From Thermoproteota archaeon (lineage in GTDB: Archaea > Thermoproteota > Methanomethylicia > Methanomethylicales > B66-G16): a stretch of DNA of 13,902 bases. Of the stretch, positions 1,991 to 3,833 are shown piece after piece; the first letter of the stretch is position 1, and the number at the start of each line of letters is the position of its first letter. The stretch spans positions 1 to 13,902 of the forward strand of contig QMQV01000039.1 of NCBI GenBank assembly GCA_003649085.1, read 5' to 3'. The notes under the pieces were generated by a model that searched no databases, was not told the DNA's origin, and saw only the letters and a program-made list of their open reading frames with translations. The position numbers and the translations under genes were made by a program.

Positions 1991-2959
1991 TTACTTCTTC
2001 TCGAGCTCCCTGGCTATGAAACTTTCAATTTCAGACAGCCTCGGTAGTCCTGATCTCGCTCCAAACTTAGTCATTTTATGCGAAGCAAAGAAGTTACCTA
2101 GCTTTCCACAATCGCTTAAGCTCCTCCCTTTAATTAGCCCATAGAGAAAGCCTGCGTTAAAGGCATCACCAGCACCTGTTGGGTCTACGACCTCGCATTT
2201 ATAGGGTTCAACATAATAGCGCTGATACCCATTAGTTACAAAACAGCCCTTTTCTCCTAACTTAACTGCAACTATGTCGACTCCAAGAGAAAGCATCGTG
2301 TTAACTCCTTCTTCAATGGAGGCTTTACCTGTAAGCATGCGTAGTTCTTCATGGTTTAGTAGGAGTATGTTGGTGTGGCGTATTAGAGGCTCTATGTGGG
2401 AGAGCCCCTTTTGAGCATATATAGCTCCAGGATCTAAGCTTACCTTAACGCTACTTGGTAAATGCTCTAGTAACGTTCTCTGAACATTAAGTGGGGCATC
2501 TCCAATAAATGAGGTTATGTGAAGTATTCTAGCCCTCGATGCGTACTCTAAGTTTATGTCGTTTACGTTTAAGTAGTCGTTTGCTCCTGGCATTACGTAG
2601 ATAGTTCTATGCCCCTTATCGTCGAAAAAGCATAATGCTATGCCACTCTTAACCCCTCTTTCTACTACTATGTTGCTTACGTCAACGCCTTCTTTCTTTA
2701 AGTCACGTATAAGCTTACGACCTTCCCGATCATCCCCTACTTTGCCTATAAACCCTGTTTTGAGACCAGCTCTAGCAAGGCCAACTATCGTGTTTGCAGC
2801 TGATCCGCCAGATTCTTCGCGAATTTCTATAATGTAACTTTCATCATCTACGCCAGCTACTCTCTTTACCTTAAAGAGCTTATCTACGTTTAAAGCTCCA
2901 AATCCTATAACGTCAAAACTCTTTGATGAGCTCGCGCAACCATATCTTATACTCTCCAA
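1991..2959 (-). CDS. PfkB/ribokinase-family kinase, substrate unassigned
   Basis: ATP-dependent small-molecule kinase of the ribokinase fold; members phosphorylate sugars or nucleosides. The 322-aa protein shows FDVIGFGALNVD (15-26, N-terminal substrate-binding strand), GGSAANT (51-57, first family signature) and DPTGAGDAFNAGF (259-271, second signature) with D265 as the expected catalytic base and the GAGD anion hole. The GGSAAN form also occurs in nucleoside kinases, so a purine-nucleoside salvage kinase is possible, but a sugar kinase fits as well. The start is TTG at 2959, 47 nt inside the upstream ftr-like gene, preceded by GGGGGT four nt away; no other ATG/GTG/TTG lies before the conserved FDVIGFG strand. 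The deep overlap implies translational coupling. It is the last gene of the minus-strand run. Confidence 0.88.
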   Translation of the reverse strand: MESIRYGCASSSKSFDVIGFGALNVDKLFKVKRVAGVDDESYIIEIREESGGSAANTIVGLARAGLKTGFIGKVGDDREGRKLIRDLKKEGVDVSNIVVERGVKSGIALCFFDDKGHRTIYVMPGANDYLNVNDINLEYASRARILHITSFIGDAPLNVQRTLLEHLPSSVKVSLDPGAIYAQKGLSHIEPLIRHTNILLLNHEELRMLTGKASIEEGVNTMLSLGVDIVAVKLGEKGCFVTNGYQRYYVEPYKCEVVDPTGAGDAFNAGFLYGLIKGRSLSDCGKLGNFFASHKMTKFGARSGLPRLSEIESFIARELEKK

Positions 2960-3833
2960 GCTTACCCCCGTAGTTACCAGCAGATATTCTCAAAACACCT
3001 TTAACTTCACAAGCAGCTTTTATACCGTAACTCAAAGCTTGTTTGACAGCTTCAAGCGAAACTCCGTTAATCACGATCTCAGGAATGTATCTTACACCCT
3101 CAGGTACCTTAGACTCTGCTCTAAGCCTCTTCTTTAGAGAAGGGCAATATGGATGATTTGTTGTGGGACCAATCCACGGAAACTTAGTCTCCGGTTTTGA
3201 ACCTGCTGAGCAAATGTTGAAAGGGGTGATAACTCCAGGAACTGAGCTAATAGCTTTTAAGATTTTCTTGCCAGCTCTTAAGACCGCTTTTTTACTAGAA
3301 CACATGTACCATAGGTTTGCGCCCATAACCCCTATGGAATAGCCAATTTTCCTCTCGATTTGGAAATCGGGAACCATTACCGGTATGTTTATCATTTCTC
3401 TTCCATAGAGTTTTTCAACCCACTCATAGCCGTCGCCACAATGCCCTATTCTGTACATTGTATCGATGTGCCCGATGGGATTAAGACAGGCGTCAAAGAC
3501 TCTAGTAAAAGGTTTTACTAGGATACCTTGCCTTATCCTGTATGAAAACTCTTTTTCGAATTTCGCTAAAATCTCATCAAGTGGTTTATTAGCTTCTAGT
3601 TGACACCAAAACTGTAATACTACGCCTGCTCTACCATCAGGTGTTTCTTTTGGAGAAAGCCATTTTTCAATACCTGCTTCTAATCTACCTATTACTGCTG
3701 AAGGAAGTGCTGTAGAGTTTAATGCGGCTTCTCTAAGGGTGGTTTTATCGTAAGCTGTTATGATCACCCTACAAAAAATCCCTTTAAAAGCTTCGGCATA
3801 CGTGTCCTCAATGTATACCTCCTTGACCTCGAT
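2913..3833 (-). CDS. ftr: Formylmethanofuran:tetrahydromethanopterin formyltransferase-like protein, apparent AUC or AUU start
   Basis: Ftr moves the formyl group between formylmethanofuran and the N5 of tetrahydromethanopterin. Similarity to the Methanopyrus enzyme (from memory) runs end to end. Positions counted from codon 3833: IEDTYAEAF (8-16), ETPDGRAG (63-70), GDGYEW (near 133), GREMINIPV, IGYSIGVMGAN, PTTNHPYCPS, PEGVRYIPEIVINGV and a C-terminal ISAGNYGGKLGEYKI. The C-terminal lobe is better conserved than the N-terminal one, so this is a divergent member and its substrate is not certain. The first in-frame conventional start, GTG at 3767, would cut off the conserved IEDTYAEAF. The open frame upstream contains no ATG/GTG/TTG. 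The reported start, ATC at 3833, aligns with the methanogen Met, shares a base with the HAD stop (TAATC) and follows GGAGG by 9 nt. ATT at 3812 follows AAGGAGGT and is the alternative. Product is 306 or 299 aa; the family is about 297. Confidence 0.82.
   Translation of the reverse strand: MEVKEVYIEDTYAEAFKGIFCRVIITAYDKTTLREAALNSTALPSAVIGRLEAGIEKWLSPKETPDGRAGVVLQFWCQLEANKPLDEILAKFEKEFSYRIRQGILVKPFTRVFDACLNPIGHIDTMYRIGHCGDGYEWVEKLYGREMINIPVMVPDFQIERKIGYSIGVMGANLWYMCSSKKAVLRAGKKILKAISSVPGVITPFNICSAGSKPETKFPWIGPTTNHPYCPSLKKRLRAESKVPEGVRYIPEIVINGVSLEAVKQALSYGIKAACEVKGVLRISAGNYGGKLGEYKIWLRELIKEF
3817..3824 (-). promoter_or_regulatory. Strong Shine-Dalgarno AAGGAGGT inside the ftr-like 5' region
   Basis: The minus strand reads AAGGAGGT and then, four nt later, ATT (3812-3810), in frame with the conserved IEDTYAEAF segment. 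It is the best ribosome-binding match in this junction and argues for AUU initiation unless the AUC at 3833 is used. Confidence 0.5.

Follow-up and report, generated by a model that had tools for sequence, protein, structure and literature searches.

A 13,902-nucleotide stretch of a Thermoproteota archaeon (contig QMQV01000039.1, hereafter the window) was analysed, and a paralogue of formylmethanofuran:tetrahydromethanopterin formyltransferase (Ftr) was found inside a run of purine (pur) genes. We call this paralogue Ftr2. Its sequence and its position made it a strong and, in our view, probable candidate for the long-missing archaeal enzyme that formylates glycinamide ribonucleotide (GAR). 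The best reading was that Ftr2 formylates GAR from the methanopterin one-carbon (C1) pool, which we considered rather more than an even possibility. With a named candidate, supported by its operon and by a catalytic residue that is conserved, the missing GAR step becomes testable in one assay.

The profile matches placed the window protein in the Ftr family beyond doubt. The initial annotation had put an Ftr-like gene at 2913-3833 within a purine gene run, and this was borne out by the gene order and by the scores for PF01913 (122 bits) and PF02741 (192 bits), against gathering scores of 27 and 25. The broader subfamily model NF002554 was also matched (320.9 vs 297 bits). However, the score against TIGR03119, the equivalog model of Ftr (EC 2.3.1.101), was 213.7 bits when read from GTG 3767, below the cut-off of 292.6 bits. 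The other Ftr2 proteins gave 214.9-256.8 bits (6/6 below the cut-off), whereas the canonical Ftr proteins (Ftr1) gave 392.6-428.0 bits (4/4 above). The window Ftr2 matched neither PF00551 (Formyl_trans_N) nor TIGR01142, which meant that it was not of the PurN family and not PurT.

The tree was consistent with these scores. It had 94 rows, consisting of the window, three PDB fragments and 90 rows chosen from 206 FTR reading frames; frames shorter than 220 aa, L204, many near-duplicates and 6s6y were not in it. Ftr1 and Ftr2 were split with a support of 100/100. The Ftr2 half held the window, relatives from Bathyarchaeia, Mnemosynella, Njordarchaeum and 20 second copies from Asgard-side genomes, a set of 195 draft genomes related to Njordarchaeum G290 and presumably from Asgard archaea. 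The other half held the Ftr proteins of A. fulgidus, M. barkeri and M. kandleri with solved structures, two bacterial plasmid-borne FhcD and other archaeal copies. The biochemically known Ftr of these three species lay across the split from the window. Judged by sequence, Ftr2 is a separate paralogue clade and not canonical Ftr, and the earlier description of the protein as a divergent Ftr held on both the clade split and the TIGR03119 score. Genomes were classed by Pfam score band (about 131-160 bits for Ftr2 and 162-211 bits for Ftr1), with a check by the tree for the rows in it. Among 48 genomes of relatives, a copy of the window type (134-160 bits) was present in 48/48 and a copy in the canonical band (176-202 bits) in 35, together with two lower-scoring pieces. 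Twelve of the 48 had Ftr2 only; G039, which has Ftr2 beside a piece of unclear class, was counted neither as Ftr2-only nor as Ftr1-bearing. Since 35 genomes hold a canonical-band copy too, Ftr2 is not simply a stand-in for canonical Ftr.

Conserved residues were then compared. Acharya et al. reportedly described in 2006 a key role of Glu245 in the Ftr of M. kandleri. The aligned residue was E252, kept in at least 90% of both Ftr1 and Ftr2 rows, and we take it to be the catalytic glutamate of Ftr. About 35 positions were common to Ftr1 and Ftr2 in the alignment. In contrast to Ftr/FhcD of known structure (PDB 1ftr, 1m5h, 1m5s, 6s6y), which share with Ftr2 the two Pfam domains over the full length, the glutamate and many positions, the window protein lies in the separate clade below the equivalog cut-off, is linked to pur genes and carries changes of its own. 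Twenty near-fixed positions were specific to Ftr2, among them G94R, F127C and A221P (49/49 rows each) and T99V (46/49), and P201-G202 was missing in 49/49 rows. The basic residue R101 was fixed in Ftr2 only, with glycine at that position in 41/44 Ftr1 rows.

Several unusual family members were observed. Three Thermoproteota genomes with Ftr1 and no PurN or PurT match carried a strongly diverged Ftr2 group of 330-332 aa (L187, L188, L189), and no pur gene was found in the fetched flanks of these copies. L186 (G157, 9660-10538; 126.8 bits), a third copy of the FTR family, fell outside Ftr2 and had a very long branch. The Asgard-side Ftr2 frame L175 (G472, 3174-4091) had an internal TAG, from a broken gene or a sequence error. 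An in-frame TGA was flagged in some Asgard-side second copies, and selenocysteine was rejected: in the two fetched, the TGA precedes the conserved protein start, and no relevant Rfam match was found.

The linkage of Ftr2 to purine genes was examined in the best 80 of 317 stretches encoding a relative. Neighbours were found by tblastn with the window proteins, and the counts are lower bounds since overlap filtering can drop a neighbour. A pur gene lay within 10 kb of Ftr2 in 68/80 loci. In the control, a pur gene was near canonical Ftr in 0/20 loci, taken from 20 genomes among the 48, with mostly about 10 kb per side and in a few cases 2-8 kb on one side. Of the 69 loci with 2.7 kb or more of sequence upstream, 60 had PurD on that side, within 4 kb and in the same orientation as Ftr2. 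HAD-superfamily phosphatase was within 600 nt upstream in 62/77 loci with room, and PfkB within 600 nt downstream in 68/78. In many relatives, purF-purD-HAD-Ftr2-pfkB faced purQ-purL-purS-purM, and Ftr2 therefore stood between the gene that makes GAR and the genes that use its formylated product (FGAR). A lack of pur linkage in relatives had been named beforehand as a refuting result, and the linkage was present. Njordarchaeum (L080) showed PurD-HAD-Ftr2-PfkB. The same order of the Bathyarchaeia type was observed in Ca. Mnemosynella biddleae (Archaeoglobi; L038), on one contig with an Archaeoglobus-like Ftr1, and its Ftr2 was placed among Bathyarchaeia rows in the tree. This operon may be a transfer and is not taken as representative of Archaeoglobales.

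We showed that PurN and PurT were absent from the 48 genomes of relatives. PF00551 at E 1e-3 gave PurN matches in 0/48 genomes, compared with 12 of 14 control genomes. No PurT match in the 48 was over the cut-off of 502 bits; weak matches occurred in 42 genomes, the best being 58.5 bits in a 1,093-aa frame that is probably carbamoyl-phosphate synthase, by its length. The cut-off was strict, as 0/250 genomes of a Thermoproteota sample passed it, and 27 matches (crenarchaeal PurT-like) in that sample lay at 435-501 bits, far above 58.5. The presence of purN or purT elsewhere in the genome was the other refuting result named in advance, and none was found in the relatives. The chromosome of relative G033, a record with 6,400 N, carried PurF, D, L, S, M, E and B, two Ftr and a PurQ-type protein; tblastn with PurC of the window as query did not detect PurC there (best 37 bits).

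A similar trend was observed in the 250-genome sample. FTR was present in 65 genomes, which fell by score band into 38 with Ftr2 (9 of them also among the 48 relatives), 3 with divergent Ftr2, 23 with Ftr1 only and 1 with a fragment. The divergent copies (G285, G278, G274) were in the Ftr2 half of the tree and were kept out of the 38, and the comparison of Ftr1 with Ftr2 did not include G181, whose FTR match is a 55-bit piece. PurN over its cut-off or PurT at E <=1e-60 was found in 0/38 Ftr2 and 0/3 divergent Ftr2 genomes, in contrast to 13/23 Ftr1-only genomes (seven with PurN, two with a full-length and four with a partial PurT match). Another four of these 23 gave weak matches to the PurN model. 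The Fisher P value of 2e-7 for Ftr2 against Ftr1-only overstated the independent evidence because the Ftr2 genomes were taken as largely one clade.

The published distributions showed the same overlap. Brown et al. 2011 described seven archaea in which the purine pathway is intact but for GAR formylation, a step without a known enzyme there: two Archaeoglobi, M. kandleri and four methanogens grouped there as Methanomicrobiales, namely M. stadtmanae, M. smithii, M. ruminantium and M. thermoautotrophicus (PMC3261824). In M. stadtmanae, C8 derives from C2 of acetate, which the same account took to fit a folate carrier best (PMC3261824). Chadwick et al. 2022 described Ftr2 in ANME-1, ANME-2a/b, Archaeoglobales, M. 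kandleri and M. marburgensis, and reported PurN and PurT as missing from ANME-1, Archaeoglobales and Methanobacteriales (PMC9012536). As far as these accounts go, the Ftr2 distribution and the gap overlap in ANME-1, Archaeoglobales, M. kandleri and Methanobacteriales/Methanothermobacter. The Ftr2 of ANME-1, ANME-2a/b, Archaeoglobales, Methanopyrus and Methanothermobacter resembles ours, by its description, as a divergent paralogue beside Ftr1; unlike here, the passages describing it draw no purine connection, and they state that only Ftr1 versions were biochemically characterised to the authors' knowledge (PMC9012536). Our literature search, which missed most subscription journals and preprints, found no paper connecting Ftr with GAR formylation.

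In the Ftr reaction, a formyl group is bound either to methanofuran, at its primary amine, or to N5 of tetrahydromethanopterin (H4MPT), and GAR likewise has a primary amine. We infer the activity, acceptor and donor of Ftr2 from the features above. As the GAR formyltransferase of this lineage, it would use the Ftr fold and the Ftr glutamate to move a formyl group from a carrier of the methanopterin system to the amine of GAR, and the FGAR would then be used by PurL/S/Q. The likeliest donor would be 5-formyl-H4MPT, with GAR in the place of the methanofuran amine in the reverse Ftr reaction; formylmethanofuran would be the second choice. The pterin side and the glutamate would be kept and GAR bound instead of methanofuran, giving 5-formyl-H4MPT + GAR -> FGAR + H4MPT, with R101 as a candidate phosphate contact. 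Ftr2 may, in some genomes, also catalyse the canonical Ftr reaction. PurN (10-formyltetrahydrofolate) and PurT (formate/ATP) catalyse the reaction proposed for Ftr2, GAR to FGAR, but they are of unrelated families, use other donors and are absent from 48/48 genomes of relatives.

Several results weighed against GAR formylation by Ftr2. No GAR site was shown, and the AlphaFold model (15-row alignment) was poor in the loops of interest, with a mean predicted local distance difference test score of 67.9 and weak regions at 44-49, 127-157 and 206-226. Twelve of the 80 Ftr2 loci had no pur gene in reach, and in five of them the flanks reached 10 kb on one side and 4.8 kb or more on the other; loci with long flanks and no pur genes included L013, L015, L040, L063 and L072. 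All 20 Asgard-side Ftr2 loci fetched, some on short contigs, were also without a pur gene, and no relative of the window's HAD or PfkB was near Ftr2 in them. The suggestion of a pur-linked Ftr clade thus stood for Bathyarchaeia, one Archaeoglobi genome and Njordarchaeum, and failed in these 20 other loci. In the Thermoproteota sample, where PurL was not looked for, 6/23 Ftr1-only genomes had no PurN and PurT matches. ANME-2a/b is said to have both PurN and Ftr2 (PMC9012536).

The Asgard-side set was similar in this respect. FTR was found in 124 of its 195 genomes, PurN over the cut-off in 97, a PurT-like match in 2 and PurL in 134 at E 1e-60 (114 over the cut-off). Ftr2 or a second FTR copy was present in at least 26/90 genomes with PurL and PurN, against at least 21/44 with PurL and no PurN (P 0.036, kinship ignored). 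Counting only Ftr2 rows among the matches listed, the values were 15/90 and 15/44, and 23 genomes with PurL and no PurN had no sign of Ftr2 among those matches. The pattern followed clade. In one Ftr2 clade (G467, G478, G370, G415, G452, G472, G474, G447), PurN and PurT were each in 0/8 genomes and PurL in 7/8, which speaks for GAR formylation by Ftr2. In another (G471, G453, G459, G483, G368, G479, G299), PurN was in 5/7, and Ftr2 and PurN are therefore not strictly exclusive. Finally, Mch was found in 72/77 and FwdA over the cut-off in 72/77 of the genomes examined. Because 10/12 Ftr2-only genomes keep Mch (as pieces in two cases) and FwdA over the cut-off, these sequence data suggested that Ftr2 may catalyse the ordinary Ftr reaction in them. 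The pattern of FwdA and Mch does not tell the donor.

FwdA and Mch in 10/12 Ftr2-only genomes would also be expected if Ftr2 were an ordinary formylmethanofuran:H4MPT isoenzyme, co-expressed so that C1 supply tracks purine demand, with another enzyme formylating GAR. The catalytic glutamate and the positions common to Ftr1 and Ftr2 fit this as well. However, most relatives already hold a canonical-band copy, positions conserved in Ftr1 are altered and fixed in Ftr2 (for example G94R, F127C, loss of P201-G202), and the GAR step would be left without any enzyme found; we consider this explanation unlikely. The initial annotation had asked whether the gene was the only ftr beside a complete methanopterin pathway. 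In the relatives this applied to the minority, with 35/48 having canonical-band ftr too and 12/48 only Ftr2, 10 of these beside FwdA and Mch. The earlier interpretation, that the protein may feed or perform a purine formylation, was supported in part by the Ftr clade, the pur linkage and the missing PurN and PurT in relatives, and Ftr2 may have a canonical Ftr role where it is the only copy.

It is more doubtful that Ftr2 runs backwards with Fwd/Fhc-type hydrolysis to release formate, which a formate-dependent ATP-grasp enzyme such as a PurP paralogue would use on GAR. Bacterial formyltransferase/hydrolase complexes are described as making formate (PMC8141765), and PurP paralogues of unknown function are reported (PMC3261824). 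However, no FwdA-like protein was among the scanned window ORFs (open reading frames). We take Pyrobaculum to belong to the Thermoproteales of Brown et al. Cluster Ib/II PurP is listed also in Sulfolobales, Pyrococcus and Pyrobaculum, groups credited with PurT or PurN (PMC3261824), and by that listing the PurP paralogues do not track the GAR gap. Least probable of all was a separate small pathway of HAD, Ftr2 and PfkB for a formylated sugar phosphate, cofactor or salvage, near pur genes through a common ribose-phosphate metabolite. The Ftr2-PfkB pair does persist without any pur gene found nearby (L015, L040, L072). EhaR we take to be a HAD protein. By their description, EhaS (Ftr-like) and EhaT (ribokinase) of Methanothermobacter are a similar pair of adjacent genes, unlike ours in being described as part of the eha hydrogenase transcription unit (PMC3087415). 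This pathway would leave the absent PurN and PurT unexplained, and no relative of the window's HAD or PfkB was found near Ftr2 in the 20 Asgard-side loci.

If Ftr2 formylates GAR, the methanopterin C1 pool would feed purine C8 directly, and N5-formyl-H4MPT or formylmethanofuran would be a biosynthetic formyl donor. A fold of an energy pathway would have been recruited to nucleotide synthesis, and "second ftr" genes in archaeal genome reconstructions would have to be read differently. More tentatively, Ftr2 could quite possibly stand beside PurN and PurT as a third class of GAR formyltransferase, not homologous to them and with 5-formyl-H4MPT or formylmethanofuran as its donor, and be the enzyme missing in Archaeoglobales, Methanobacteriales, Methanopyrus, ANME-1, Bathyarchaeia and part of the Asgard archaea; EhaS would then be a purine enzyme.

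The genes of the window are listed in Table 1. From the ORF list and the profile scans, purF-purD-HAD-ftr-pfkB was a tight minus-strand run, preceded by PurM; the plus strand carried PurC and, from 9247 on, PurE, PurB, PurS and PurL. PurD and HAD were 2 bases apart, HAD and Ftr2 had one base (3833) in common, and the called frames of Ftr2 and PfkB overlapped. PurN and PurT were not among the called ORFs, as the initial annotation had noted. Its view of GAR to FGAR as the sole gap in the pathway did not hold, as PurQ was not in the window either. PurQ lay between PfkB and PurL in the relatives looked at (an ORF with PF13507 in L257), and the PurQ-like ORF of L001 as query was found within 10 kb of Ftr2 in 48/80 loci; PurQ of the source genome may sit outside the window.

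Table 1. Genes and signals in the window, in positions of the whole stretch
Feature	Positions	Strand	Basis
Ftr2 (Ftr-family formyltransferase paralogue)	2913..3833	-	PF01913/PF02741, frame, conserved N-terminus, Ftr2 clade; probably starts at ATC 3833, with GTG 3767 as the next usable codon
Shine-Dalgarno-like AGGAGG	3843..3848	-	9 nt before ATC, read from sequence
PfkB / ribokinase-family kinase	1991..2959	-	PF00294 183 bits; overlaps Ftr2 end
HAD-superfamily phosphatase	3833..4927	-	PF12710; PDB 1y8a E 2.1e-36; relative of A. fulgidus AF1437
PurD (makes GAR)	4930..6342	-	PF01071, PF02844, PF02843; TIGR00877 278.7 bits vs cut-off 288
PurF	6376..7791	-	TIGR01134 295.7 bits vs cut-off 350
PurM-like aminoimidazole ribonucleotide synthase	7998..9179	-	profile matches; 26-33% identical to PurM near Ftr2 in relatives
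PurC	1112..1969	+	PF01259 256 bits
PurE	9247..9714	+	PF00731, TIGR01162
PurB-type lyase	9729..11093	+	PF00206, PF10397
PurS	11097..11345	+	TIGR00302 83 bits
PurL (consumes FGAR, product of GAR formylation)	11342..13717	+	TIGR01736 693.5 bits

PurE of the window was, like PurM, of low identity (35-39%) to its counterparts near Ftr2 in relatives, in contrast to PurD, PurF and PurL (mostly 50-67%). These values suggested that PurM and PurE may be of another origin. The HAD family has a solved structure from A. fulgidus (1y8a), titled hypothetical protein; a search with AF1437 gave 180 proteins, and the names among the 120 listed, many of which carry none, were Archaeoglobus, Geoglobus and other Archaeoglobaceae/Archaeoglobales. 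In viral contigs, 53 pattern matches included no relative.

The start of Ftr2 was also examined. The mechanical ORF starts at GTG 3767, the reading frame is open up to 3860, and the residues ahead of the GTG (VYIEDTYAEAFKGIFCR) were conserved in relatives. This supported the gene end at 3833 given by the initial annotation. No ATG, GTG or TTG was in frame upstream of GTG 3767 in the conserved N-terminal stretch of the window. The ATC at 3833-3831 follows the AGGAGG motif and overlaps the TAA of the HAD gene, and relatives such as L043 and L065 have ATG at the matching position. From these features, the start codon seems to be ATC, which is probable. A public protein with 99% identity (6 member sequences, one contig) is likewise given as 284 aa, called from the internal GTG, and the odd start is therefore not unique to the window.

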